Shown: in pieces, positions 3 to 28,806 of the stretch
Layout: each line of letters begins with the position of its first letter
Position numbering within the stretch: position 1 is the first letter of the stretch
Source: Bacteroidota bacterium
GTDB taxonomy: Bacteria > Bacteroidota > Bacteroidia > Bacteroidales > JAIFNC01
Length of the DNA: 34,755 nt
Direction: 5' to 3'
NCBI GenBank assembly: GCA_020047935.1
Contig: JAIFNC010000284.1
Coordinates: 1-34,755, forward strand
The notes under the pieces: generated by a model
The model's input: only the letters and a program-made list of their open reading frames with translations
Database searches by the model: none
Told to the model about the DNA's origin: nothing
Translations under genes and position numbers: made by a program

Positions 3-215
3 GCCGGCGAATTAAAAATAACTGCATTTGACGTTTTGCAAGCAAACGAAAGCGTAAGCCGAAGTGTAACTCAGTCATACATTGAAGACTCTATAAACAG
101 TGTTTTGCAGCGTTATTATATGCTAACTTTTACCTACAATCTGCGCACTTTTCAGCAAGGAAACCGCATGGAAATGGAGCGAGGCAGAAATTTTGAACGC
201 ATGCACGACCATTAA
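3..215 (+). CDS. C-terminal end of a TonB-dependent-receptor-like outer membrane beta-barrel protein (partial)
   Basis: The first 71 codons are the end of a gene that begins outside the window; frame 3 is open from base 3 to a TAA at 213-215. The translation contains alternating polar/aromatic strands ending in YYMLTFTYNLRTF, followed by a polar tail rich in Arg, Glu and Met. This strand pattern is typical of the last barrel strands of Bacteroidota outer-membrane proteins of the OMP_b-brl_3 type (TonB receptor relatives), where the motif LTFTYNLR recurs near the C-terminus. The substrate cannot be told from this fragment. The charged extension after the final aromatic strand is a little unusual, because barrels commonly end on an aromatic residue. 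Family assignment is by recognition of the end motif only. Confidence 0.6.
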   Translation, partial: AGELKITAFDVLQANESVSRSVTQSYIEDSINSVLQRYYMLTFTYNLRTFQQGNRMEMERGRNFERMHDH

Positions 216-225
216 TTTTATTTTT

Positions 226-297
226 TGTTGAAAAAAGGCGACAATTTACCAATTGGTTTTTAAACTTAAGCCGGTTATTGAGCCTTTTTATTCAACA
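226..297 (+). terminator. Possible terminator-like inverted repeat after the barrel gene
   Basis: Arms at about 226-239 (TGTTGAAAAAAGGC) and 282-297 (GCCTTTTTATTCAACA) are complementary except for one bulged or mismatched base. The loop is long (about 42 bases) and itself holds the palindrome ACCAATTGGT at 248-257. The stem lies 11 bases after the stop of the partial gene. A strong uridine tract is missing outside the second arm, so this is a weak terminator candidate. Confidence 0.35.
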
Positions 298-444
298 TAA
301 ATGCATACAAAAAAAGTTAATAATTATCTGATTTTAAATGACTAACAACCTAATGATATAATTTTTTGTTAAATAAAAATTATTATTTGTTAAAGTCGGT
401 AAGTAGGTTTAATTTTAGCCGGTCAAATTAAAACAAAAAAAATA

Positions 445-1053
445 ATGACAATAACAAAGGATAAAGTAGTTTCAGTTTCGTATCAATTACGAGCTACTGA
501 CGGTGAGTTGATTGAAAGTGTAGATACCAGCCGCCCATTTATGTTTTTATATGGTGTTGGAAATATGATTCCGAAATTCGAAGAAAATTTGGCAGGAATG
601 AAAGAAGGTTCGAAATTCGATTTCGTTATTGTTGCCAATGAGGCATATGGTCCGGTAAATGACGATGCAATTGTTGAATTGCCTACCGATATTTTTAAAG
701 TTGACGGTGTTATTGACGAAGATTTGCTAATTATTGGCAATACAGTTCCGATGCAAGACCCTCAAGGACACAAATTTAACGGAATAGTGAAAGCCTTGGG
801 CGAAAATTCGGTAACTATGGATTTTAACCACCCGTTGGCAGGTGTAGATTTGCATTTTACCGGCGAGGTTTTCGGTATTCGCGAGGCTACCGAAGAAGAA
901 TTGAGCCACGGTCATATTCACGGTGCAGGCGGACACGACCATGGTCATGACCACGGCGGTTGCGGTTGCGGCGATGGCGGTTGTAACGACGACAGCTGCG
1001 GTTGCGAAGATGAAAAAGAAGAATCGTGCGGTTCGGGTTGCGGTTGCCACTAA
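445..1053 (+). CDS. slyD: SlyD-type FKBP peptidyl-prolyl cis-trans isomerase with metal-binding tail
   Basis: Cytoplasmic FKBP-type prolyl isomerase and chaperone. The 202 residues are close to the E. coli SlyD length (196). Residues 1-70 form the FKBP part (DGELIESVDTSRPFMFLYG, then the GMKEG segment), with the insert-in-flap chaperone domain at about 70-125 beginning near AYGPVNDDA, and the FKBP part resuming with MDFNHPLAG. From about residue 154 the protein becomes a His/Cys/Gly-rich tail with 8 His and 8 Cys. In SlyD such a tail binds nickel and related metals and helps hydrogenase maturation; no hydrogenase or urease gene is seen here. ATG at 445 is the first start in frame and gives the canonical N-terminus. 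The gene is followed after a few bases by a glycosyltransferase, probably on the same transcript. Confidence 0.93.
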   Translation: MTITKDKVVSVSYQLRATDGELIESVDTSRPFMFLYGVGNMIPKFEENLAGMKEGSKFDFVIVANEAYGPVNDDAIVELPTDIFKVDGVIDEDLLIIGNTVPMQDPQGHKFNGIVKALGENSVTMDFNHPLAGVDLHFTGEVFGIREATEEELSHGHIHGAGGHDHGHDHGGCGCGDGGCNDDSCGCEDEKEESCGSGCGCH

Positions 1054-1077
1054 ATTGTGCTTAACTTACCCCAACAA

Positions 1078-1869
1078 ATGAACCTTACGGTGGTTGTTTC
1101 GTATTATAAGGCCTTGGAGAATTTAAAAATTATTCTTCAAGCGCTTAATAACCAAAGTGCAGCTAACTTTGAAGTAATAGTTTCGGAAGACGATTTTAAT
1201 GAGCAAACGGTTTTATTTTTAAACGAAAATAGGACAAACTATAAATTCGAAATTTTGCATCTTCATCAAACGGAAGATCATGGTTTCAGAAAAAATAAAA
1301 TGCTCAATAAATGTTTGCTTGCCTGCCGAACCGATTATATAGCTTTTATTGATGGCGATTGCATTCCGCATACCCATTTTGTAAAAGAATATATTCGAAA
1401 CGCAGAACCGGGATATTACATTTCGGGGCGAGCAGTGCTACTTGGCGAAAAAACAACCGAAGCATTCAAACGACACCAAAACTTGGCTAAATTGAGCTTT
1501 TGTAAGCTTATTTTTACCGATTCCGAAAAAATAAAGGACGGAATTTATAGTCCCGTGCTGCCGTTTTCGGCAAAAAGTCGTGGTTTGGTGGGCAGAAATT
1601 GGGGTATACATAAAAAACATTTGTTCGAAATTAATGGTTTCGACGAAGATTATCAAGAAGCCGGAGTAGGAGAGGACACCGATGTTGAATGGCGATTAAG
1701 TGCCAATGGAATAAAACGCAAAAGCGTTAAAAACAAAGCTATTGTGTATCATTTATTCCACAAAAGAGGCTACTCCGACGAAGGTGTTCAGCGTAATTAC
1801 CAAAAAATGTTTGCTAAGCAAAAAGCAAATACGGTTAAATGCCATAATGGAATCGAAAAACTAAAATAA
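1078..1869 (+). CDS. Family 2 glycosyltransferase
   Basis: Inverting GT-A glycosyltransferase that should move a sugar from a nucleotide-sugar donor to a surface polysaccharide or other acceptor; donor and acceptor are unknown. From ATG 1078 it is 263 residues. It has the N-terminal TVVVSYYKALENL strand-helix, the DxD-like metal site in FIDGDC (Asp92, Asp94) and a C-terminal galactosyltransferase-type segment (INGFDEDYQEAGVGEDTDVEW) carrying the acidic pair Glu199-Asp200, as in the GT2/GT7 C-terminal family. No membrane segment or signal peptide is visible, so it is cytosolic or membrane-associated. A GTG at 1057 would add seven residues; ATG 1078 is preferred because the family begins directly at the first beta strand. 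It lies 24 bases after slyD and is closed by a strong terminator. Confidence 0.88.
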   Translation: MNLTVVVSYYKALENLKIILQALNNQSAANFEVIVSEDDFNEQTVLFLNENRTNYKFEILHLHQTEDHGFRKNKMLNKCLLACRTDYIAFIDGDCIPHTHFVKEYIRNAEPGYYISGRAVLLGEKTTEAFKRHQNLAKLSFCKLIFTDSEKIKDGIYSPVLPFSAKSRGLVGRNWGIHKKHLFEINGFDEDYQEAGVGEDTDVEWRLSANGIKRKSVKNKAIVYHLFHKRGYSDEGVQRNYQKMFAKQKANTVKCHNGIEKLK

Positions 1870-5912: not shown

Positions 5913-8900
5913 ATGAGCGAACGAATTCTGAAAGCTTTGATGCAATTATTTGCAATTATTGCCGACCCTGAGAACGATACGGTTGACAGGAGAAGCGTTG
6001 TTGAAAATTTTTTGCAGCAACAGCTTAATACCGAATTGGTTAAGCTCTATATGGATTTGTTCGACGGTTTTTTGGAATCAAATCAGGAAAAGCAAGTTAA
6101 GCGTTCAAAAAAGAAAGTATATTCGTCGAATTCGGTTCGTGTACTTAAACTTTGTACCGAAATTAACCAAGAACTTACCAAAAAGCAAAAAATAGTTTTA
6201 ATCATTCGGCTCCTCGAATTTATCAGAACCGATTCGGGAGAGGTTACCGAAAATGAAATTGATTTTGTTAATACCGTGGCTTCAACTTTTAATATTATCG
6301 ACCATGAATACAACAATTTACGGTCGTTTATTATAAAACATACCATTGAAGACATTTCGGGCAACGAAATTTTGCTTATCGACGATAATAGATACAACGA
6401 TGCGGATAATAGAATTTATACCGAATCGTTGCGCGGGCAAATTAGAATTTTAAACATTGCCTCGGTAGGCAGTTACATTATGCGGTACTTGGGCGACGAT
6501 GAGTTGTACCTAAACGGGCAACTTTTAAACCACGGGCGGTCGTATATTATTAATGTAGGCTCTTCGCTTCGAAATTCGAAAATCAAACCAATTTACTATT
6601 CCGATATTGTAAGCGTATTTAATACAAACGACAGCGGTGTCGGAATCGATTTCGAAGTCCATCATATCACTCATCGGTTTTCCAACGGCAAAATAGGTAT
6701 TCACGATATAAGCTTTAGTGAAGAGGAAGGCAAATTGGTTGGTATAATGGGCGTTAGCGGTTCAGGTAAAACTACCTTGCTTAGCGTTTTGAACGGTTCC
6801 GAAAAGCCGGCTGAAGGGCATGTATTAATTAACGGTAAAGATATTCACTCAAAAAACGACGAAATTAACGGATTAATTGGCTATGTGTCGCAAGACGATT
6901 TGCTGATTGAGGAACTTACCGTTTTTCAGAACTTATATTATAATGCAAAACTTTGTTTCGGCAATTATTCCGAACGCAGAATAATTCGTTCGGTACTACT
7001 AATGTTGCATAGTCTTGGTTTGTACGAAATTAAAGATATTATGGTTGGTTCGCCCCTCATTAAACGAATAAGCGGAGGGCAACGCAAACGATTAAATATA
7101 GCCCTTGAACTTATTCGCGAGCCGGCGGTACTTTTTTTAGACGAACCTACTTCCGGTCTTTCTTCGCGCGATTCGGAGAATATTTTGGATTTGCTCAAAG
7201 AGCTAACTTTGCGCGGAAAGCTGGTGTTTGTAGTTATTCACCAGCCATCGTCGGATATTTTTAAAATGTTCGATAAGCTTTTACTGCTCGATACCGGCGG
7301 ACATTTAATTTACAACGGCGACCCGGTTGATTCGATAGTTTATTTCAAATCGCGCGTTAAGCAAGCCGACTGGAACGAAAGCGAATGCCATGCATGCGGT
7401 AATGTGAACCCCGAACAATTATTTAACATTGTAGAGTCAAGGGTAATTGATGAATATGGTAATTTTACACGCACACGCAAAACATCGCCCTTAGAGTGGG
7501 CTAAATTTTTTAAGCAATTTGTGGGCGACCAGCATGGCGATGAAAAACAATATGGAAGCTTGCCAAAAATTTCCTTTAATATTCCTAACGGTCTAAAGCA
7601 GTTCTTTGTTTTTACCATTCGCGATGTGTTGTCGAAACTTGCCAACAAACAATATCTTGCATTAAATTTGCTGTTATCGCCTATTTTGGCTATAGCGCTT
7701 AGTTTTATTATAAAATACTACCAAGAAGGCGAGGATTACGAGTTTATCGACAATAGCAACCTGCCGGTTTATATATTTATGTCGGTTATTGTAGCGCTAT
7801 TTATTGGTCTTACGGTAAGTGCCGAGGAAATTATAAAAGACCGAAAAATACGAAAACGCGAAAAATTTCTGAATCTGAGTCGGAATAGTTATTTACTCTC
7901 GAAAGTGTTTATTTTAATCGGCATTTCAGCATTGCAATCGTTTTTGTTTGTTGTGTTGGGAAATTCAATTATCGAAATAAAAGGCATGTATTTAGAATAT
8001 TGGCTTATGCTTTTTACCGTTTGGATAAGTGCCAATTTGGTGGGTCTAAATGTTTCAGATACGTTTAAAACTACGGTTAACATTTATATACTTATTCCGT
8101 TTTTAATTATACCGCAAATTATTTTAAGTGGTGTTTTAGTGCAGTTCGATAAGCTAAACCCAATAATTTCGCGACCCGGAACCATTCCATGGTACGGCGA
8201 ATTTATAACCGCTCGTTGGGCGTATGAAGGTTTGGCGGTTAATCAGTTTGTTAATAATAGCTACGAAAAAGATTTATATGTTTTCGATAAAATTAAAGCT
8301 CGATGCGAGATAATGAATAATGTGCTTATAGGCAGATTGCAATTGCATGCCGATGAGGTACTTGCGCAAATAAACAAGCCGGAAAAAGACGAAAAGTTCG
8401 AAAAATCGTTGGCTATTTTGCGAAATGAAGTGGTTAAAGAATTAAAAGTAAATAAGTTTTTTAGCTTGGAAGCAGTAGATAATTTGTATTTGGACAAAGT
8501 GCAGGAAGTTGATATTGACATGGTTAAGATTTACCTCGATCAAATAAACAATTACTATAAGCAGTTGTATGTACGTGCCGAACGTTCGAGTGACGAAACA
8601 GTGTCCAAAAGGCAGAAAACGGCGGAAGAAAAAAACGCCTTTATTAAGTTAAAACGCGATAATTATAACCAATCGTTGTACGAAATAGTTACCAATTCAA
8701 AAGATTATACAAGAATAGTTGAGCATGGTAACGAAATTATTGTCAAAACCAATGCGGTATACTTGGAGCCTAAACCGGGAATTTTTGGTGCTCATTTTTA
8801 TGCACCGGTTAAAAAGGTAGGAAATTTGGAAATTGAAACCTATTGGTATAACTTAATGGTTATATGGGCAATGTCAATTGTTTTGTATGCTACCTTGTAC

Positions 8901-8966
8901 TTTAGAGTATTGGCGCGAATTCTCGATTTTCGTGAGCGTATTGATAAAAACGAACCTGCCGATTAG
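5913..8966 (+). CDS. ABCG-type ABC transporter, fused ATPase and permease with TerB-like N-terminal region
   Basis: Inner-membrane ABC half transporter of 1017 residues, presumably an exporter working as a dimer; substrate unknown. Residues about 1-150 are helical and acidic and resemble a TerB-like domain (LFAIIADPENDTVDRRS, then LEFIRTDSGEVTENE). Residues about 170-250 look like a small beta domain (YLNGQLLNHGRSYIINVG), perhaps a degenerate FHA-like fold. The ATPase domain has Walker A GVSGSGKTT (280-288), signature ISGGQ (386-390) and Walker B LFLDEP with Asp410-Glu411, then the H-loop VVIHQPSSD. A CHAC motif (Cys492, Cys495) lies between ATPase and membrane domain. Five membrane segments are visible between about 580 and 746, then a roughly 220-residue charged insert and a last segment at about 980-1003. 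The gene appears to be a single transcription unit. The N-terminal assignments are inference from sequence feel, the ABC call is firm. Confidence 0.88.
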   Translation: MSERILKALMQLFAIIADPENDTVDRRSVVENFLQQQLNTELVKLYMDLFDGFLESNQEKQVKRSKKKVYSSNSVRVLKLCTEINQELTKKQKIVLIIRLLEFIRTDSGEVTENEIDFVNTVASTFNIIDHEYNNLRSFIIKHTIEDISGNEILLIDDNRYNDADNRIYTESLRGQIRILNIASVGSYIMRYLGDDELYLNGQLLNHGRSYIINVGSSLRNSKIKPIYYSDIVSVFNTNDSGVGIDFEVHHITHRFSNGKIGIHDISFSEEEGKLVGIMGVSGSGKTTLLSVLNGSEKPAEGHVLINGKDIHSKNDEINGLIGYVSQDDLLIEELTVFQNLYYNAKLCFGNYSERRIIRSVLLMLHSLGLYEIKDIMVGSPLIKRISGGQRKRLNIALELIREPAVLFLDEPTSGLSSRDSENILDLLKELTLRGKLVFVVIHQPSSDIFKMFDKLLLLDTGGHLIYNGDPVDSIVYFKSRVKQADWNESECHACGNVNPEQLFNIVESRVIDEYGNFTRTRKTSPLEWAKFFKQFVGDQHGDEKQYGSLPKISFNIPNGLKQFFVFTIRDVLSKLANKQYLALNLLLSPILAIALSFIIKYYQEGEDYEFIDNSNLPVYIFMSVIVALFIGLTVSAEEIIKDRKIRKREKFLNLSRNSYLLSKVFILIGISALQSFLFVVLGNSIIEIKGMYLEYWLMLFTVWISANLVGLNVSDTFKTTVNIYILIPFLIIPQIILSGVLVQFDKLNPIISRPGTIPWYGEFITARWAYEGLAVNQFVNNSYEKDLYVFDKIKARCEIMNNVLIGRLQLHADEVLAQINKPEKDEKFEKSLAILRNEVVKELKVNKFFSLEAVDNLYLDKVQEVDIDMVKIYLDQINNYYKQLYVRAERSSDETVSKRQKTAEEKNAFIKLKRDNYNQSLYEIVTNSKDYTRIVEHGNEIIVKTNAVYLEPKPGIFGAHFYAPVKKVGNLEIETYWYNLMVIWAMSIVLYATLYFRVLARILDFRERIDKNEPAD

Positions 8967-9127: not shown

Positions 9128-9517
9128 CTAATTATCTTCGTCAATAATTTCAATCATTTTAAAAGGTATTTTTAAAATCGACTGATAGTCTTCGCCGGCT
9201 TCCAGCATATCTTCGTCGTCTTCTTCGTAATACCAATTAATAAGCACACTTTCGGTTGAGCGCTGTACTGCTTCCAATTTTTTGAAAACATCCAATATAC
9301 ATTTCGACGAACTTGTATTGAAGTATTCTAACTGAATTTTAACCGTTGTTTTAGAGGCTGGAGTAGCAGCATACTTATCTAACCAATCGACAAGCGGTTT
9401 ATAAAATTCAATTGAATTTTCCGGTATCGAACGTCCTTTTATTTCAATTAGACCTTCTTCGGCATTGAAATTAACTGTTGGGGTTTTACCCGTTCCTTTT
9501 AATGCAATAGATTCCAT
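9128..9517 (-). CDS. SiaC family regulatory phosphoprotein (DUF1987)
   Basis: Small acidic cytosolic protein of 129 residues, the normal family length. In Pseudomonas aeruginosa SiaC is phosphorylated by SiaB, dephosphorylated by SiaA, and in its free form activates the diguanylate cyclase SiaD. Here the family hallmarks are TPTVNF near the N-terminus, GRSIPENSIEFYKPLVDWL (29-46), the beta strand with LEYFNTSSSK (63-72) in which Thr68 matches the phosphorylation position known from SiaC, and the acidic EEDDEDMLEAGEDYQ stretch. It follows the SiaB-type kinase gene after 16 bases, and the two are cotranscribed and closed by a terminator. No SiaD or other cyclase lies nearby, so the output of the switch is unknown. 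It is paralogous to the protein at 28222-28608. Confidence 0.9.
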   Translation of the reverse strand: MESIALKGTGKTPTVNFNAEEGLIEIKGRSIPENSIEFYKPLVDWLDKYAATPASKTTVKIQLEYFNTSSSKCILDVFKKLEAVQRSTESVLINWYYEEDDEDMLEAGEDYQSILKIPFKMIEIIDEDN

Positions 9518-9533
9518 TTTTCGATGTTAATTT

Positions 9534-10079
9534 TTAAGTTACTACAGCTTCCAAACAAAAAAAGCAATAATCATTTTTCATCGGATTAAAAGAATAGTTA
9601 AGCTTGTTTCCGGTTCGCTTTGCTATGTCTATAATGCCTAATCCGCCGCCGCCTTTTTCTGAAAACTCTTCGTTACCAAGTATTATTCTGTATAGTTCTT
9701 TTAATTCTTCAGTCGATAAAAAGTTTATTTGGTCTATTCTATCGCGAAGTACTTTTATTCGATTATTTTTAATAAAGTTACCTGTTGAAAGCAAATAGCC
9801 CGTTTCTAATTTTCGAATTACAAATATAATAAATTTTCCGCCATTTTCCGCTGTATTTCCCGGGGTTAAATCTACGTGGTGAAATAAGTTTTGAATAGCT
9901 TCTACCGATATATTGTACAATTTTTTCGAAACCCCCGGTTTCTCATCAATAACGTGCAATTGGTGCTCAATGGTATTAAGAACCTGATCTATAACGTTGG
10001 ATGAAATATCGCCTTTGTAGCTAAATATCACATTGCCTTTTATCTGTTCGTCGTACCACACATTGATATCGAATTCCAT
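9534..10079 (-). CDS. SiaB family protein kinase (GHKL fold)
   Basis: Cytosolic kinase expected to phosphorylate the SiaC protein encoded 16 bases downstream. From the chosen start it is 181 residues (MEFDINVWYDEQ...), matching the family. The GHKL ATP-binding elements are visible: an N-box with SVEAIQNLFHH (Glu60, Asn64) and a glycine-rich GGGGLGIIDIAKRTG near residues 143-157. In P. aeruginosa SiaB is the antagonist of the phosphatase SiaA. An upstream GTG at 10106 keeps the frame open, but it lies on the last base of a TATATTTG promoter box, so ATG 10079 is the sensible start. No sensor or membrane domain is present, therefore its input must come from a partner. Confidence 0.87.
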   Translation of the reverse strand: MEFDINVWYDEQIKGNVIFSYKGDISSNVIDQVLNTIEHQLHVIDEKPGVSKKLYNISVEAIQNLFHHVDLTPGNTAENGGKFIIFVIRKLETGYLLSTGNFIKNNRIKVLRDRIDQINFLSTEELKELYRIILGNEEFSEKGGGGLGIIDIAKRTGNKLNYSFNPMKNDYCFFCLEAVVT

Positions 10080-10105
10080 TGAATTTTTCTGTTTAATCCT
10101 TTGCA

Positions 10106-10113
10106 CAAATATA
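10106..10113 (-). promoter_or_regulatory. Promoter -7 box for siaB-siaC
   Basis: Read on the minus strand this is TATATTTG followed by TGCA, a full match to the Bacteroidota TAnnTTTG box, located 27 bases upstream of ATG 10079. A transcript starting a few bases downstream would exclude the GTG at 10106 and so decides the start. No clear TTTG -33 box was identified. Confidence 0.55.
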
Positions 10114-10158: not shown

Positions 10159-11316
10159 TTAATTTTCGGAAGTTTTGTATTCTTTATGAGAACCTTTAAA
10201 AACACGAAATTCACGGAACTTGCATTCTATTTTGCCGTTCAGTAAACTGTAGGTTTTGGTGTGTTTTAGTTCTAAATGCTTAAATGCATACTCGTTACCC
10301 GACAAAATCCAAGCGGTATAATTGGTATATTTATGTTTTAATGTATCGCCTATTTCTTTGTACAATGCGTTTATGTCGTCGGTCGTAATTCGCTCGCCAT
10401 AAGGCGGATTGGTAATTATAAAGCCGTTTTCGGTGGGTGCTGTGGTATTTTCGAATTTTTCTTTTTTAATTTCTATTCGTTTGCTAAAACTTGCGTTGGC
10501 AATGTTTACTTTTGTTGCTTGCAATGCCTTGCTGTCCGAATCGGACCCAAAAATCATTATATTACCGTCGTATTTAATTTCGTTTTCTTGCGCGTGGTCC
10601 AACACTTTTTCCCAAATATCTTTGTCAAAGGTTATCCATCGTTCAAAACCAAATTCGGGGCGGTATATTCCGGGCGCAATATTATATGCCATCATGGCAG
10701 CTTCAATAAGCAAAGTGCCCGAACCGCACATAGGGTCGTAAAGCGGAGTTTTTTTGTCCCAGCCCGAAAGCGACAACATGCCGGCAGCAAGTACTTCATT
10801 GAGCGGTGCGGCAAATGCATCGGTACGGTAACCGCGTCGGTTAAGCGATTCGCCTGAACTGTCGAGCGATACGGTACAAACATTTTCGGCTATGTGCACA
10901 TTTATTCGTACATCGGGGTGTTTGATATCTACATTGGGGCGTATACGATGAATTTCGCGCATTTTATCAACAATGGCATCTTTGGTTTTAAGTGCCACAT
11001 AACCCGAATGATTAAAAAGTTTCGAAAAAACAATACTGTCAACCGAGATTGTCTGCAATCGGCCAATATAATCTTGCCAATTCATGGCAAAAAGTTTTTT
11101 GTATAAGTCTTCAACGCCCGAAATTTTAAATGTTTCGAGTTCTACCAAAACACGTATTGCGGTTCGCAAATTTAAATTCGCTTTGTACATTATTTCGGTA
11201 TCGCCTTCAAATGAAACGGCTCGGTTTAACTGCGTTACATTCGATGCGCCAATAGCATTTATTTCTTCTGCCAACACATTTTCAAGACCCAAAAGGGTTT
11301 TTGCCAACAACTTCAT
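10159..11316 (-). CDS. THUMP-domain SAM-dependent rRNA methyltransferase, RlmL-like
   Basis: RNA guanine-N2 methyltransferase of the RlmL N-terminal type, predicted to modify 23S rRNA (G2445 in E. coli). It has 385 residues and lacks the second RlmK-like methyltransferase domain of E. coli RlmL, as is usual outside gammaproteobacteria. Residues 1-60 are the ferredoxin-like start, about 60-160 the THUMP domain, and 165-375 the Rossmann methyltransferase domain with SAM-binding DPMCGSGTLLIEAA (194-207) and catalytic NPPYGER (303-309). No signal peptide is seen, so it is cytosolic. ATG at 11316 gives the typical MKLLAKTLLGLE start. It is transcribed toward the siaBC promoter and has about 80 bases between its stop and the SiaB start. 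Exact target nucleotide is inferred from the family only. Confidence 0.88.
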   Translation of the reverse strand: MKLLAKTLLGLENVLAEEINAIGASNVTQLNRAVSFEGDTEIMYKANLNLRTAIRVLVELETFKISGVEDLYKKLFAMNWQDYIGRLQTISVDSIVFSKLFNHSGYVALKTKDAIVDKMREIHRIRPNVDIKHPDVRINVHIAENVCTVSLDSSGESLNRRGYRTDAFAAPLNEVLAAGMLSLSGWDKKTPLYDPMCGSGTLLIEAAMMAYNIAPGIYRPEFGFERWITFDKDIWEKVLDHAQENEIKYDGNIMIFGSDSDSKALQATKVNIANASFSKRIEIKKEKFENTTAPTENGFIITNPPYGERITTDDINALYKEIGDTLKHKYTNYTAWILSGNEYAFKHLELKHTKTYSLLNGKIECKFREFRVFKGSHKEYKTSEN

Positions 11317-18470: not shown

Positions 18471-19835
18471 ATGCGAATAAATAAATTACTCGAAAGATAC
18501 GTTGAATTTTTCCGAAGAAAAATGTTTAATAGCCCAAGCAGCCTATTGGATACGGTTGATTTGTGGAGAAACTTATTTTTTTTCCGGATTGTATTGGTAA
18601 TTCTGCCCGTTTCGGTGGTAGTATATATATTGGGTGCTACTGCCGGTATTTTGGCAAAAATGTATGGGCTTATTTTTTTCGATACCGTGGGTATGCTTAT
18701 TATCATATTTATTGCCTTCGATTCAAGTTTTTCAATTTTATTCAAAAAAATTCTGTTTCTGTTTACTATCTATTTTTTAGGTATTATGCTGTTTTATTAT
18801 TTAGGTTTTTTTGGTCCGGCGTTAATATACCTAATGGCTGTTTCAATTTTAAGTGCGTTAATTATTAACGAAAAAGTAGCTGTTGCTACCTTTGTTTTAA
18901 ATTTAGTGCTTTTTATATATTTTATTATTTCAGTAACATTAAATGTTGAATATAAGCCACTTATGATGAATGCTTCGGCTTTTTTGGCAGTGGGTATAAA
19001 TTTTATGGCATTTAACCTAATACTAATTATTGCGGTAATTTCATTAATCACCCATTTGCGCGAAGCGCTTACTTTACAGGGTAATATAAAAGCCAAATTA
19101 CTCGAAGAAAGTGCAAAACTGCAAATTGCAAAGCAACGTGCCGAACAAAGCGATTCGTTTAAGACCGGATTTATTCAGGATGTTTCGCACGGTATTCAAA
19201 TTCCGTTGAAAGCTATTAAAAGCTTTTCCGATTTGGTAAATAACGAAAATATTGAAATTGAAAAAAGACGCTATTTTATCGATATAATTTCGAGCAATGC
19301 CAAATTATTACAAAACATAGTTCACGATTTACAAATTCTTTCGACCATTGAAAACAACCAAGTAATAGTTACAAAAAGCACGATCGAACTTAATAAAGTT
19401 ATTGGTGAACTAATTACTGTTTTTTCTGAAGAATATAAAGATAAAAACATAGGAATTATTTTCAAACAAAAAATTGCCGACGGTCGCGACAACATTGAAA
19501 CCGACGAAGCGCTGCTTAAAAAAATTATCATAAATTTACTTTCCAATGCATTGAAATATACCGAATTGGGTTTTGTTGAAATTGGATATGTTTTCAGAAA
19601 TGAATGTATTGAAATTTTTGTCAAAGATACCGGTATAGGAATTGCACCTGAACAACTGAAAAATTTGTTTAACAGGTTTTATCGAGTTGAAAATGCAATA
19701 AACAGCCGACATGCCGGAACCGGTTTAGGCTTAAGCTTAGCACGAGCAAATGCGCAAGCCCTTGGTGGCGAGCTAACTTGTAATTCGATGTTGCATGTTG
19801 GTACTACATTTTACCTTAGCGTTCCGATTAAATAA
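18471..19835 (+). CDS. Membrane sensor histidine kinase with atypical H-box
   Basis: 454 residues. After a basic N-terminus, six hydrophobic segments (about 35-60, 63-85, 90-130, 135-160, 165-190) form a compact membrane sensor with almost no periplasmic domain. A coiled coil (195-235) leads to the HisKA dimerisation helix and a HATPase_c domain (about 335-454). The ATP-binding boxes look intact: N-box Asn359 in NLLSNALKY, G1 VKDTGIGIAPEQ, F-box FNRFYRVENA, G2 GTGLGLSLARANA. The H-box reads DVSHGIQIPLKAI: His240 and Pro245 are kept, but the acidic residue normally at H+1 is Gly241. No response regulator gene is adjacent, so this is an orphan kinase; its output and whether it autophosphorylates normally are uncertain. 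Confidence 0.9.
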   Translation: MRINKLLERYVEFFRRKMFNSPSSLLDTVDLWRNLFFFRIVLVILPVSVVVYILGATAGILAKMYGLIFFDTVGMLIIIFIAFDSSFSILFKKILFLFTIYFLGIMLFYYLGFFGPALIYLMAVSILSALIINEKVAVATFVLNLVLFIYFIISVTLNVEYKPLMMNASAFLAVGINFMAFNLILIIAVISLITHLREALTLQGNIKAKLLEESAKLQIAKQRAEQSDSFKTGFIQDVSHGIQIPLKAIKSFSDLVNNENIEIEKRRYFIDIISSNAKLLQNIVHDLQILSTIENNQVIVTKSTIELNKVIGELITVFSEEYKDKNIGIIFKQKIADGRDNIETDEALLKKIIINLLSNALKYTELGFVEIGYVFRNECIEIFVKDTGIGIAPEQLKNLFNRFYRVENAINSRHAGTGLGLSLARANAQALGGELTCNSMLHVGTTFYLSVPIK

Positions 19836-19924
19836 CGTTTTTTTAGCCAAATTTTAAAATAAATTGAAGAAAAAAAAGTTTAACTATAAAAATTGATGTA
19901 TTGTTTAATTTTAAAATTCGTAAT

Positions 19925-21508
19925 ATGAAAAAATTTCTCGTAAGCGCGCTTTCATTGTGTGTGCTTTTTTTGGGGATGAATGCGCAAAACAAATCGCCTG
20001 AAAATTGGTTTAATTTAGATAAAAATGCCGATAATATTCGAGGTATAAGCACGGAAAAAGTGTATGCTGAAATTTTAAAAAACAGAAAATCAAGTCCGGT
20101 AGTGGTTGCAGTGCTTGATTCGGGCGTTGATATTTACCACGAAGATTTGAAAGATAATATTTGGGTAAATGAAGATGAAATTGCAGGAAACGGTATGGAT
20201 GACGATAAAAACGGCTATATTGACGATGTAAACGGTTGGAGTTTTTTAGGCAACGCTAAAGGCGAAAATGTGAGCCAAGATAATTTGGAGCTGGCTCGTT
20301 TGTATAAAACTTATGCCGCAAAATTTGGAACCAAAGTTGCCACCGAAGTGCCAAAAGAAGAGCAAAAAGAATTTGGTAAATGGCAGATTGTTAAAGCCGA
20401 TTTTGAAACACAACGTAAAGAATATCAGGATAATTATGATGGATTTTTGGGATTTTCAGAACGCTTTTTGGCTGCAAAAAAGGCAGTTGAATCGTTTTTG
20501 GGTAAAGAAAACCCAAGTGCCGAAGAAGTAAAAGCTATTACCACAGACGATAAAGAATTGGCAGGTATTGTAACTTTTTATTATAATTCGCTAATGCGTG
20601 GTTTGAGTACCGATTATATAACTGAAGTAATTAACTATTATGGTGGTTATATAAAATATAAACTAAACCCCGATTTAAATAGCCGTGCCATTGTGGGTGA
20701 TAATTACGACAATGTAAACGAACGTATTTATGGAAACAGCGATGTAAAAGGGCCGGATGCCGACCACGGAACGCATGTTGCCGGAATTATTGCTGCTACC
20801 AGAACCAATAATTTAGGAATGAAAGGCATTGCCGATAATGTTAAAATTATGTCGGTTCGTGTAGTGCCGGATGGCGACGAACGTGATAAAGACGTTGCCA
20901 ATGCTATTTATTATGCAGTTGATAACGGTGCGCGCATTATAAATATGAGCTTTGGTAAAGACTATAGTGCGAATCCGGAAATTGTAGCGAAAGCATTTGC
21001 ATACGCTTCAAAAAAAGGTGTTCTTTTGGTTCATGCTGCCGGCAACGATGCTAAAAATGTAGATGTTACCGATAACTTCCCAACACGAAGTTACGAGGGT
21101 TTTAAAGAATTTTCGACATGGATTGAAGTTGGCGCTTCTGATTACGGTACCAATTCAAGTTTTGTTGGTAATTTTTCTAATTATGGCAAAAAGATGGTCG
21201 ATTTATTTGCACCTGGTGTTCAAATTTATTCTACCACGCCTGAAAACAATTACGAAAGATTCGATGGTACCAGCATGGCATCGCCGGTTGTAGCAGGTGC
21301 TGCAGCGTTAGTTTTAAGCTATTATCCGCAACTAACTGCAGTTCAAGTTCGAAGTATACTTTTAAAATCGGTTGAAAGCTATAAAAAAGAATTGGTTAAC
21401 AAACCGGGAAGCAAAGATGAATTGGTTAAATTTGCACAACTTTGCAAAACCGGCGGAATTGTTAATGTGTATAATGCTATACTGCTTGCCGATAAAATGG
21501 CAAAATAA
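19925..21508 (+). CDS. Secreted subtilisin-like serine peptidase (S8 family)
   Basis: 527 residues from ATG 19925; the frame is open upstream to a TTG at 19901, but ATG 19925 directly starts a typical signal peptide (MKKFLVSALSLCVLFLGMNAQ). The catalytic triad is complete: Asp65 in AVLDSGVDIYHEDL, His281 in DHGTHVAGI, Ser450 in GTSMASPVVAG, with oxyanion Asn374 in HAAGND. About 215 residues separate Asp and His, far more than the roughly 30 in subtilisin; the insert (about 95-270) is helical and charged and may serve as an internal regulatory or propeptide-like domain. No N-terminal propeptide of usual size and no type IX secretion C-terminal domain are seen, so a periplasmic location is likely. 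It is followed by a bidirectional terminator. Confidence 0.92.
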   Translation: MKKFLVSALSLCVLFLGMNAQNKSPENWFNLDKNADNIRGISTEKVYAEILKNRKSSPVVVAVLDSGVDIYHEDLKDNIWVNEDEIAGNGMDDDKNGYIDDVNGWSFLGNAKGENVSQDNLELARLYKTYAAKFGTKVATEVPKEEQKEFGKWQIVKADFETQRKEYQDNYDGFLGFSERFLAAKKAVESFLGKENPSAEEVKAITTDDKELAGIVTFYYNSLMRGLSTDYITEVINYYGGYIKYKLNPDLNSRAIVGDNYDNVNERIYGNSDVKGPDADHGTHVAGIIAATRTNNLGMKGIADNVKIMSVRVVPDGDERDKDVANAIYYAVDNGARIINMSFGKDYSANPEIVAKAFAYASKKGVLLVHAAGNDAKNVDVTDNFPTRSYEGFKEFSTWIEVGASDYGTNSSFVGNFSNYGKKMVDLFAPGVQIYSTTPENNYERFDGTSMASPVVAGAAALVLSYYPQLTAVQVRSILLKSVESYKKELVNKPGSKDELVKFAQLCKTGGIVNVYNAILLADKMAK

Positions 21509-24860: not shown

Positions 24861-27800
24861 ATGCAATATAATAAAAGTTATTTATTTATAGCTATTAGTA
24901 TTTTAATGTTTACGAACAATATTTTTTCTCAAAATATTGTTTTCTCTAAACTTTCAATTGACGATGGCTTATCGCACAGTGTAGTATATAATGTTTGTCA
25001 GGATAACAATGGTTTTTTGTGGTTTAGCACGCAAGACGGAGGGTTGAACAGGTACGATGGTTATAGGTTTAACTCGTTTTTTACCAATCGGCGCGATTCA
25101 GGCTCTATTTCGAGCAACAATTTAAATAAATTGGTATTAGATGCCGATGGCAATTTATGGATAGGTACTTGGGGCGGAGGTGTTAATAGGTATAACTCGC
25201 GAACCGACCTTTTTACTAATTTCAAAAACGATCCGCTTAACTCCAATAGTTTGTCGGGCGATAAAATTCAAGCATTGGCTTTGGATGCCGCCGGAATAAT
25301 TTGGATAGGAACCGCCGGTACCGGTTTAAACAGCTTAGACCCCAAAACAAAAAAAGTTGTTAGGTATTTAAATAATCCGAATGACAATACCAGTATTGTA
25401 AACGATAGAATTTGGTCTATTTTGCCCGATGATAAAAATGGTGTATGGGTAGGGACTGAGCAAGGGTTGAATTATTTGGAAAAAAACAAGTCGAACTTTA
25501 AACAAATAACTTTTGAAATAGGAATCAATGAAGTTGGATTTCAAATTAGAAGTTTAGCTTACGATGCATCAGGTAATTTGTGGGTAGGTACTTCAAAAGG
25601 TATTGTAATTATAGATAAAGCCGGCAAACATTCGGTCTTATATCCTTATCCTGCTGATATTAGCGATAATCAGAAAAATAACATAAACGTTGTTTATAAA
25701 GATGCATTAAACAATATGTGGGTAGGAACCCAGTCGGGCGGACTTTCGCTGTACAATACGAAAACCAAAACCTTTAGCAATTATTTGAATGATTTAAACG
25801 ACCCTAATTCAATAAGTTTTAACGATGTACGCGATATAATACAAGATAAATCCGGAATTTATTGGGTTGGTACACGCGGAGGTGGGGTAAATAAGTTCGA
25901 TTTACGACCAAAAAAATTCAGCGCCATATATCCGAGCAAAGAAAAAGGGCTTTCGGGCAACCGAGTTAGAGCAATTCTGGCAACTCCCGAAGGCGATTTG
26001 TGGCTGGGAACCGATTTTAGCGGGTTGAATCGATACAATAAAAAAACCGGTGAATACACCTATTATAACGTGTCGCAGAGCAGGGGCTTTAAACTTAGCA
26101 GTAATCGCATCCGTTCGTTAGCGCGCGACCACGAAGGCAAAATTTGGGTAGGAACAGACGAAGGCGGATTGAATGTTATTGATTTGAAAAAAAATGAAGT
26201 ACTGGTTTATCAGCAAGAAAATACCCGATTAGCATCGAATGAAGTTTCTTGTTTATATTTCGATTCCAAGCACCGAATGTGGGCAGGAACAAAAAACGGC
26301 ATTTCGCTTTTTGACCTAAACAATAGAAAAATAAGAACTTATAAGCATTCGCCCTCAAATATGGGCAGTTTAAGCGATAACAGAGTACTTAGCATAATTG
26401 AAGATAAACAAGGGTTTATTTGGGTAGGTACCGATAATGGCTTGAACAGATACGATTCGGAATATGGTTTATTTGTTAAATATTATCAGCAAATTGATAA
26501 CGAACATTCGATATTAGATAACGATATTTATTCAATGACTATTGATAATTTAGGCCAATTATGGATAGGAACAGCGGGCGGATTAAATTTATATAATCCT
26601 AAAAAAGACCATTTTACGAACTTTGTAAATAACGAAATTTCATTTGGTGGCATAGTATATGGCTTGTTGCCCGACAATAATAACAATTTATGGCTTGGTA
26701 CCCTAAACGGATTGGCGCGTTTTTCAATTGATAATCATACGTTTAGAATGTTCGATGTGTCGGATGGTTTGCAGAGCCGCGAATTTTTGCAAGGTTCTTA
26801 TGCAAAAGACAGCATCGGATATTTGTATTTTGGTGGCATCCGCGGATTCAACTCTTTCCATCCCGACAGCATTTTTGAAAGCATGTTTAAACCCCAAGTT
26901 ATGATTACCGAATTTAAGGTGCTCAACAAATTGGTTCGTCCGGGCGTTACGTCTGTTATAACAGATGGTTTACCTTATGTAAAAGATATTTACTTAAGCT
27001 ACGAAGATAAAATCTTTTCGTTCGAATTTGCTGCTTTAGACTATACTTCTTCAGAAAAAAACAAGTACGCCTATATAATGGAAGGTTACGACAAAGAATG
27101 GACCCAGGCAGGAACCCGACGTTTTGTCATGTACTCCTCGTTGCCTTCCGGTACTTATACTTTTAAAGTGAAGGCAACAAATTCCGATGGTATTTGGAAC
27201 GAAACTCCGATTGAAATCAACATTCATGTTAAACCCCCGTTTTGGCAAACATGGTGGTTTTATTTGTTTGTTTTCGTTTTTATTGTAGGCAGTTTTTTCC
27301 TTTATTTGAATATTAAAATAAGAACACTTACCGAACAGAGGCGCCAGCTCGAAATTGCTGTGGCGAACAGAACTAAAGAAATACGCCGAGCAAAAGAGCA
27401 AATTGAAATTCAGCATGAATTGGTTACTGCACAAAACATTAAAATAAAAGACAGCATTCATTATGCAAAACGTATACAAAATGCAATGCTGCCTACAACC
27501 GAAGCATTCGAAAAAAACTTCGCCGATTATTTTATTCTTAATAAACCACGCGACATTGTAAGTGGCGATTATTATTGGATAAAAGAAATGGATGGCAGAG
27601 TTTATTTTGCCGTTGCCGATTGCACCGGACATGGAGTGCCGGGAGCTTTCTTAAGTTTGTTGGGCATGGCTTTTATGAATGAAATTATTAATAACCGCAA
27701 AATTCGAAATGCTGCCGAAATGCTTAATATTCTGCGCGATAATATTAAAAATGCACTGCATCAGAGTGGTAAGTCAGGCGAATCGTCCGATGGAATGGAT

Positions 27801-28196
27801 GTAGCGGTATGTATTATTGATATTGAAATGAATACCTTGAATTTTGCAGGTGCCTATAATCCGGTATATATATTCCGTAACAATGAACTTATTTCGTTAG
27901 TAGCTGACAAAATGCCAATCGGAATTTATTATAAAAGTGAAAGACCATTTACAGCAAGAGAAATTGAACTGAAAGAAGATGATACAATTTACATATTTTC
28001 AGACGGATACGCTGACCAATTTAGCGAAACTACCGGACGAAAAATGCTTAGAAGCGGATTTAAAAATTTGCTCCAAAGTGTACATAAACTGCCAATGAAA
28101 GAACAAAAAGAAAATTTGGAACGTGTTTTGTTAGAATGGCAAGGTAGCTTGCACCAAATTGATGACATATTAGTTATCGGTTTAAGGTATTTTTAA
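24861..28196 (+). CDS. Periplasmic propeller sensor fused to a SpoIIE/PP2C phosphatase
   Basis: 1111-residue transmembrane receptor. A signal peptide (to about residue 23) precedes about 14 regulator-propeller repeats of the type GNLWIGTWGGGVNRY (30-700), folding into two seven-blade propellers, then a Y_Y_Y beta-sandwich (about 707-790), one membrane segment (about 795-817), a coiled coil (820-870) and a PP2C-type SpoIIE domain (about 885-1111). Metal-binding acids are in VSGDYYW (Asp903), VADCTGHGVPGAF (Asp920), FSDGYADQF (Asp1048) and DDILVIG (Asp1101-1102). The outer half resembles that of hybrid two-component systems which sense glycans in Bacteroidota, but the output is a Ser/Thr phosphatase. 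The SiaC-type gene begins 25 bases after its stop, so this should be the SiaA-like phosphatase acting on it. Confidence 0.93.
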   Translation: MQYNKSYLFIAISILMFTNNIFSQNIVFSKLSIDDGLSHSVVYNVCQDNNGFLWFSTQDGGLNRYDGYRFNSFFTNRRDSGSISSNNLNKLVLDADGNLWIGTWGGGVNRYNSRTDLFTNFKNDPLNSNSLSGDKIQALALDAAGIIWIGTAGTGLNSLDPKTKKVVRYLNNPNDNTSIVNDRIWSILPDDKNGVWVGTEQGLNYLEKNKSNFKQITFEIGINEVGFQIRSLAYDASGNLWVGTSKGIVIIDKAGKHSVLYPYPADISDNQKNNINVVYKDALNNMWVGTQSGGLSLYNTKTKTFSNYLNDLNDPNSISFNDVRDIIQDKSGIYWVGTRGGGVNKFDLRPKKFSAIYPSKEKGLSGNRVRAILATPEGDLWLGTDFSGLNRYNKKTGEYTYYNVSQSRGFKLSSNRIRSLARDHEGKIWVGTDEGGLNVIDLKKNEVLVYQQENTRLASNEVSCLYFDSKHRMWAGTKNGISLFDLNNRKIRTYKHSPSNMGSLSDNRVLSIIEDKQGFIWVGTDNGLNRYDSEYGLFVKYYQQIDNEHSILDNDIYSMTIDNLGQLWIGTAGGLNLYNPKKDHFTNFVNNEISFGGIVYGLLPDNNNNLWLGTLNGLARFSIDNHTFRMFDVSDGLQSREFLQGSYAKDSIGYLYFGGIRGFNSFHPDSIFESMFKPQVMITEFKVLNKLVRPGVTSVITDGLPYVKDIYLSYEDKIFSFEFAALDYTSSEKNKYAYIMEGYDKEWTQAGTRRFVMYSSLPSGTYTFKVKATNSDGIWNETPIEINIHVKPPFWQTWWFYLFVFVFIVGSFFLYLNIKIRTLTEQRRQLEIAVANRTKEIRRAKEQIEIQHELVTAQNIKIKDSIHYAKRIQNAMLPTTEAFEKNFADYFILNKPRDIVSGDYYWIKEMDGRVYFAVADCTGHGVPGAFLSLLGMAFMNEIINNRKIRNAAEMLNILRDNIKNALHQSGKSGESSDGMDVAVCIIDIEMNTLNFAGAYNPVYIFRNNELISLVADKMPIGIYYKSERPFTAREIELKEDDTIYIFSDGYADQFSETTGRKMLRSGFKNLLQSVHKLPMKEQKENLERVLLEWQGSLHQIDDILVIGLRYF

Positions 28197-28221
28197 AATT
28201 TAATATTCGATTAATTTATTT

Positions 28222-28608
28222 ATGGAAACTATTAAAATAGCCGGAAATAGAGTGCTTCCCGATATTTATTTCGATGCGGTCAAGAATTCATTTCTGGTGG
28301 CCGGACGCTCATGCCCCGAAGATGTATCGAAATTTTACATGCCTCTAATTGAATGGTTGGAGGAATACGGAAAAAATCCGAACCCTAAAACCGTATTTGA
28401 TTTCAAACTTACTTACTACAATACGGCTTCGGCTAAAATGCTGCTTTCGCTTATGCAAAAAATAGAAGAAATGCATACCGAGGGTAAAGATGTTTTGATT
28501 CGTTGGTATTTTCCGGACGATGATGAAGATTTGGAAGAAGCCGGTGAAGATTTTAAGGATATTTTGGAAGTTCCTTTCGAACTTATAAGCTACGAATACG
28601 AAGATTAA
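28222..28608 (+). CDS. SiaC family regulatory phosphoprotein (DUF1987), second copy
   Basis: 128 residues, paralogous to the protein encoded at 9128-9517. Shared hallmarks are VLPDIYFD near the start, AGRSCPEDVSKFYMPLIEWL (27-46), the strand LTYYNTASAK (63-72) with Thr68 at the same position as SiaC's phosphorylated residue, and a C-terminal acidic stretch DDDEDLEEAGEDFKDILEVPFE. Cytosolic. The gene follows the propeller-phosphatase gene by 25 bases, so the pair is cotranscribed and the phosphatase probably dephosphorylates this protein. Its kinase may be the SiaB-type enzyme at 9.5 kb, since none is encoded beside it. The downstream partner is unknown. Confidence 0.9.
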   Translation: METIKIAGNRVLPDIYFDAVKNSFLVAGRSCPEDVSKFYMPLIEWLEEYGKNPNPKTVFDFKLTYYNTASAKMLLSLMQKIEEMHTEGKDVLIRWYFPDDDEDLEEAGEDFKDILEVPFELISYEYED

Positions 28609-28701: not shown

Positions 28702-28774
28702 GATACGTTAGCTCAGTCGGTAGAGCATTTGCCTTTTAAGCAAGGGGTCCCGAGTTCGAATCTCGGACGTGTCA
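28702..28774 (+). tRNA. tRNA-Lys (anticodon UUU)
   Basis: A 73-base cloverleaf: acceptor GATACGT pairs with ACGTGTC (one G-U), D stem GCTC/GAGC, anticodon stem TTTGC/GCAAG around the loop CTTTTAA (anticodon TTT at 28735-28737), 5-base variable loop, and T arm CCGAG-TTCGAAT-CTCGG. The discriminator base is A. CCA is not encoded, as is common in this phylum. It has its own promoter and terminator. Confidence 0.95.
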
Positions 28775-28775
28775 C

Positions 28776-28806
28776 AAAAAAGCGAACTTCACGGTTCGCT
28801 TTTTTT
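28776..28806 (+). terminator. Rho-independent terminator of tRNA-Lys
   Basis: AAAAAAGCGAAC (28776-28787) pairs with GTTCGCTTTTTT (28794-28805) around a 6-base loop, followed by a further T and GTTT. It starts two bases after the tRNA. Confidence 0.88.

Follow-up and report, generated by a model that had tools for sequence, protein, structure and literature searches.

A propeller-type receptor with a SiaA-like phosphatase domain is encoded next to a SiaC gene in a Bacteroidales genome

A gene in a Bacteroidales genome encodes a protein in which the periplasmic half of the hybrid two-component propeller sensors is joined through one membrane helix to a SiaA-like Ser/Thr phosphatase domain, and the next gene on the same strand encodes a SiaC family phosphoprotein (SiaC-2). 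The two genes lie in the window analyzed here, which is the whole stretch of 34,755 nucleotides (positions 1–34,755, forward strand) of contig JAIFNC010000284.1 from Bacteroidota bacterium (Bacteroidales; JAIFNC01; GCA_020047935.1). We think that the protein is probably a one-protein transmembrane receptor-phosphatase, in which a periplasmic signal would control the dephosphorylation of SiaC-2, with SiaB acting against it in trans and an effector other than a diguanylate cyclase. Propeller-SpoIIE proteins and SiaC belong to a widespread and apparently undescribed form of the SiaABC partner switch in Bacteroidia; a literature search, with most subscription journals outside its reach, found no publication naming such receptors. 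Roughly one in two of the sampled Bacteroidia has receptors of this type, and their link to SiaB and SiaC opens their function to established assays.

Anatomy of the receptor and the gene pair

The receptor gave Pfam matches to Reg_prop (7e-63), Y_Y_Y (4e-19), and SpoIIE (2e-19), and its propeller region contained 14 blade motifs, 13 of the LWxGT type and one LYFGG. Residues 22–797, i.e., the entire periplasmic half, matched BT4663 of Bacteroides thetaiotaomicron by sequence (4a2l, E = 1.6e-114), and BT4663 also ranked first when the AlphaFold2 model was searched with Foldseek. These matches support the assignment of the ectodomain to the hybrid-two-component propeller family, whereas the Pfam scan of the receptor found no histidine kinase, receiver, or DNA-binding output domain, all of which BT4663 carries. 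The AlphaFold2 model, which was of moderate confidence (mean pLDDT 68.9, pTM 0.41), contained the membrane helix, a continuous 57-residue helix after it, and a confident PP2C domain; because some ectodomain regions and the relations between domains were modeled with low confidence, we used the match of each domain by itself and not the placement of the domains.

Table 1. Positions of the receptor, its parts, and the SiaC-associated genes in the window
Feature	Nucleotides	Residues	Strand	Remarks
ABC transporter	5913..8966		+	1017 aa; ABC_tran and ABC2_membrane; convergent with SiaC-1; candidate SiaC-switch output
SiaC-1	9128..9517		-	129 aa; orthologous to the order's widespread SiaB-SiaC pair
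SiaB family protein kinase (DUF6272)	9534..10106		-	Candidate opposing kinase in trans; ~15 kb from the receptor/SiaC-2 pair
Propeller receptor-phosphatase	24861..28196		+	1111 aa; Pfam, sequence matches, AlphaFold2, Foldseek
Signal peptide/N-terminal helix				Part of receptor
Reg_prop blades		~28-690		Part of receptor; 14 blades
Y_Y_Y domain		727-791		Part of receptor
Membrane helix		794-816		Part of receptor
Long coiled coil		820-876		Part of receptor
SpoIIE/PP2C phosphatase domain	27489..28193	about 881-1110	+	Six SiaA active-site residues all present; closest solved structure SiaA-PP2C 6k4e
Intergenic gap, receptor/SiaC-2	28197..28221		+	25 bases; both genes on the same strand
SiaC-2, SiaC family phosphoprotein	28222..28608		+	128 aa; SiaC PF09345, 6e-37; Thr68 in YYNTASAK

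The nearest solved phosphatase was SiaA both by sequence (E = 2e-31) and by fold (TM 0.92, rmsd 2.0, 256 columns), and the NCBIfam SiaA model (NF038263) matched the phosphatase part only (182.6 bits, 1e-53), below its cut-off of 700 bits. The active site of SiaA consists of D457, D474, G477, D600, G601, and D653 (PMC7647112), and all six residues have identical counterparts in the window receptor and in every propeller-SpoIIE protein examined. This supports, at the level of the amino acid sequence, a SiaA-like phosphatase with all metal ligands in place, and makes it highly improbable that the SpoIIE domain lacks catalytic activity or is a mere SiaC-binding scaffold, for which no supporting point was found.

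The phosphosite of SiaC is Thr68 (PMC7647112), and its context in SiaC-2 resembles that of the SiaC phosphopeptide (...YLNTSSIK); position 68 was Thr or Ser in 165 of 166 SiaC sequences. SiaC is the plausible substrate of the receptor phosphatase. The original prediction had described about 14 propeller repeats and a Y_Y_Y domain as in the hybrid sensors, a coiled coil followed by a SpoIIE domain with all metal-binding Asp residues, and a SiaC gene 25 bases downstream, and these points were confirmed by the motif count, the Pfam and BT4663 matches, the predicted helix, the identity of the six SiaA residues, the ORF positions, and the PF09345 match. Co-transcription of the two genes may be inferred from their arrangement. 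There was no terminator-like site on the plus strand in the gap, and the first strong one, a hairpin, occurred at 28776–28805, past a tRNA-Lys gene (ttt; 28702–28775) that lies right behind SiaC-2. A search for the Bacteroidetes promoter pattern yielded matches at chance level only.

Proposed mechanism

The mechanism that we favor is modeled on the demonstrated chemistry of SiaA, SiaB, and SiaC (PMC7647112, PMC7278518). The two seven-bladed propellers and the Y_Y_Y domain would bind a ligand in the periplasm, and the resulting closure or twist of the propellers would be transmitted through the single membrane helix and a putatively dimeric coiled coil, changing the activity of the PP2C domain in one direction or the other. 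The PP2C domain would then remove the phosphate from Thr68 of SiaC-2, presumably its specific substrate and probably encoded on the same transcript, whereas SiaB kinases from other loci, among them the window SiaB at a distance of 15 kb, would re-phosphorylate it. Unphosphorylated SiaC would bind an effector that is presumably not a diguanylate cyclase. The mechanism is favored by the full-length match of the ectodomain to BT4663, the closeness to SiaA-PP2C, the complete active site, and the phosphosite, together with the genomic associations described below; the points against it are the lack of conservation of the window pair, the excess of SpoIIE over SiaC in the genome, and the fact that no kinase gene was found beside the receptor/SiaC-2 pair.

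Like the SiaABCD system of Pseudomonas aeruginosa (PMC7647112, PMC7278518), the window has a membrane sensor joined to a SiaA-like PP2C domain, a SiaC with Thr68, and a SiaB-family kinase, but it differs in the propeller/Y_Y_Y ectodomain, in the scattering of the genes, and in the location of the kinase outside the operon of the pair. BT4663 shares the whole periplasmic half with the receptor, both having two propellers and a Y_Y_Y domain, but the output is a Ser/Thr phosphatase in the receptor and a histidine kinase with receiver and DNA-binding domains in BT4663.

This resemblance raises the possibility that the receptor controls polysaccharide use as the hybrid two-component sensors do, with SiaC relaying the signal to polysaccharide genes. 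BT4663, the role of which is also described in PMC5121618, binds heparin-type disaccharides, which is in line with such a function. On the other hand, no SusD or other polysaccharide-use gene was detected in the window, all five SusD matches of the genome being on other contigs, and related propellers do other jobs: the receptor propellers also matched PorZ of type IX secretion (NCBIfam and Foldseek), which is reported to deliver anionic lipopolysaccharide (PMC8545088). We therefore consider control of polysaccharide use improbable, and the designation "glycan sensor" originally given to the protein reflects a resemblance of fold only.

Distribution of propeller-SpoIIE proteins and SiaC in Bacteroidia

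To survey the class, the Y_Y_Y-to-SpoIIE part of the receptor was searched against 395 Bacteroidia genomes (E = 1e-40). The query matched 213 genomes, SiaC was likewise found in 213, and both were present together in 207, leaving six genomes with the propeller-SpoIIE match only and six with SiaC only; these counts are used alone, since the Fisher value is raised by common descent among the genomes and the query can also pick up some SpoIIE proteins that lack a propeller. Among the 149 listed propeller matches, at least 26 (in 26 genomes of 10 family-level groups) were followed by SiaC on the same strand within 5 kb. Both the co-occurrence and these operons argue for the proposed mechanism. The usual gene order at these loci was propeller-SpoIIE, a lipoprotein of ~270 amino acids, SiaB, and SiaC, and a few loci lacked the lipoprotein. 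That propeller-SpoIIE proteins adjoin SiaC in the source genome only was considered and rejected, because a second case came from locus L231, which belongs to a different family within the order, and many more from the class survey.

The lipoprotein separates propeller-SpoIIE from SiaB in most of the operons (e.g., L211, 4301–5119; L229, 4285–5121; L212, 4391–5227). Its start resembles SCKKxExDTETQSATDNSICExEF, and the lipoproteins tested had no significant Pfam or NCBIfam match. Fused forms of the partners were also observed: SiaB-SiaB-SiaC proteins of 505–519 amino acids (L143, L160, and L163), a SiaB-SiaC protein of 291 amino acids (L073), and a SiaC domain inside a 740-amino-acid protein (L158). 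Double-SiaB proteins of ~380 amino acids were common.

The window receptor has the same architecture as the receptors of these operons and is likewise associated with SiaC, but the operons insert the lipoprotein and SiaB between the two genes, and the window phosphatase falls outside their clade. Orthology of the window pair with the lipoprotein operon was accordingly rejected, SiaC-2 also grouping with other SiaC proteins. Among the 29 nearest relatives of the window phosphatase in the order (~43–50% identity), three of which run into a contig end, none had SiaC within 1.5 kb downstream, and no other member of the SiaC-2 clade follows a propeller-SpoIIE gene. The SiaC closest to SiaC-2 came from a MAG labeled "Acetofilamentum" (61%). 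The SiaC-2 clade also contains L206 (4351–10387), where a HAMP-SpoIIE gene, a propeller-Y_Y_Y histidine kinase gene, and a SiaC-2-like gene stand in a row on one strand. The predicted conservation of the propeller-SpoIIE/SiaC neighborhood thus held at the level of the class but not for the window pair: parts of this kind recur together, whereas the exact pair is local.

A shared SiaC network as an alternative

The source genome (3.3 Mb, 70% complete) contained 33 SpoIIE matches, nine SiaC, and seven SiaB domains. The 33 SpoIIE matches constitute a large phosphatase network, and most of these phosphatases, outnumbering SiaC as they do, must work in trans or have other substrates. The receptor could accordingly belong to a common SiaC network whose many phosphatases are interchangeable; it would act on several SiaC proteins in trans, and its adjacency to SiaC-2 would be recent, fortuitous, and unspecific. 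Besides the numbers of domains, this reading fits the failure of the pair to recur among the 29 relatives and the SpoIIE tree, on which adjacency to SiaC switches 17 times.

Several gene arrangements point the other way. Contig C36 of the same genome carries, on one strand, a propeller-SpoIIE gene cut by the contig end, SiaC, a second propeller-SpoIIE gene, SiaB, and SiaC, so that a propeller-SpoIIE gene other than that of the window also directly precedes SiaC; by a rough estimate from gene counts, two direct SpoIIE-SiaC neighbors among nine SiaC would arise by chance with a probability of ~0.001. Direct SpoIIE-SiaC pairs without SiaB were found not only on C36 but also at L130, L137, and L146, with other sensors at L137 (YfiR-like) and L146 (TPR), and the window pair is separated by 25 bases only. 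The C36 arrangement and the chance estimate also count in favor of the receptor-phosphatase mechanism, and we regard the shared network as the less likely explanation, though a serious one. The genome also contains a row of GAF/PAS-SpoIIE, SiaB, SiaC, and ABC transporter genes on contig C178.

Candidate output of the SiaC switch

The SiaC target of P. aeruginosa, the diguanylate cyclase SiaD, was not found in the source genome, and neither was any GGDEF match, although absence from a 70% complete genome is not proof. Among the 213 SiaC-positive Bacteroidia genomes, GGDEF exceeded the cut-off in only four, two of them fragments. Action of SiaC on a diguanylate cyclase was therefore rejected, and the output must be something else. 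This raises the question of what SiaC targets in organisms without diguanylate cyclases, for which a conserved ABC transporter neighbor is the first candidate.

In the window, the original prediction of a SiaC switch had overlooked the opposing SiaB, which is encoded with a second SiaC (SiaC-1), although the choice of SiaC as substrate remains plausible. This SiaB scored 142.8 bits against the NCBIfam SiaB_fam_kinase model (cut-off, 85) and matched the SiaB chain of 6kko. The ABC transporter faces SiaC-1 at a distance of 162 bases, and a TerB domain was assigned to the N-terminal end of the transporter homolog L204. Of 163 distinct SiaC loci, 33 had a transporter homolog no more than 1.5 kb from SiaC. 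The homolog was downstream in convergent orientation at 17 of these loci, downstream on the same strand at 15 (mostly at 4–140 bases), and upstream at one, and SiaB directly preceded SiaC at all 33; 188 genomes had both transporter and SiaC, nine the transporter only, and 25 SiaC only. This association is one of linkage, which is no evidence of binding, and the SiaC involved is SiaC-1, not SiaC-2. The TerB-ABC2 transporter adjoining SiaB-SiaC is a candidate output of the SiaC switch. More speculatively, and in our estimation doubtfully, Bacteroidia may possess a c-di-GMP-free SiaABC switch in which propeller receptor-phosphatases, modulated by the lipoprotein, determine how far SiaC is phosphorylated, and in which the unphosphorylated form exerts direct control over the TerB-ABC2 transporter, not a diguanylate cyclase.

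On the strand of SiaB, the gene immediately upstream of it encodes an RlmL-like rRNA methyltransferase (10159–11316), and several relatives in the order have a gene of similar length at this place. The window also encodes a MASE11 membrane histidine kinase (18471–19835), followed by a subtilase (19901–21508).
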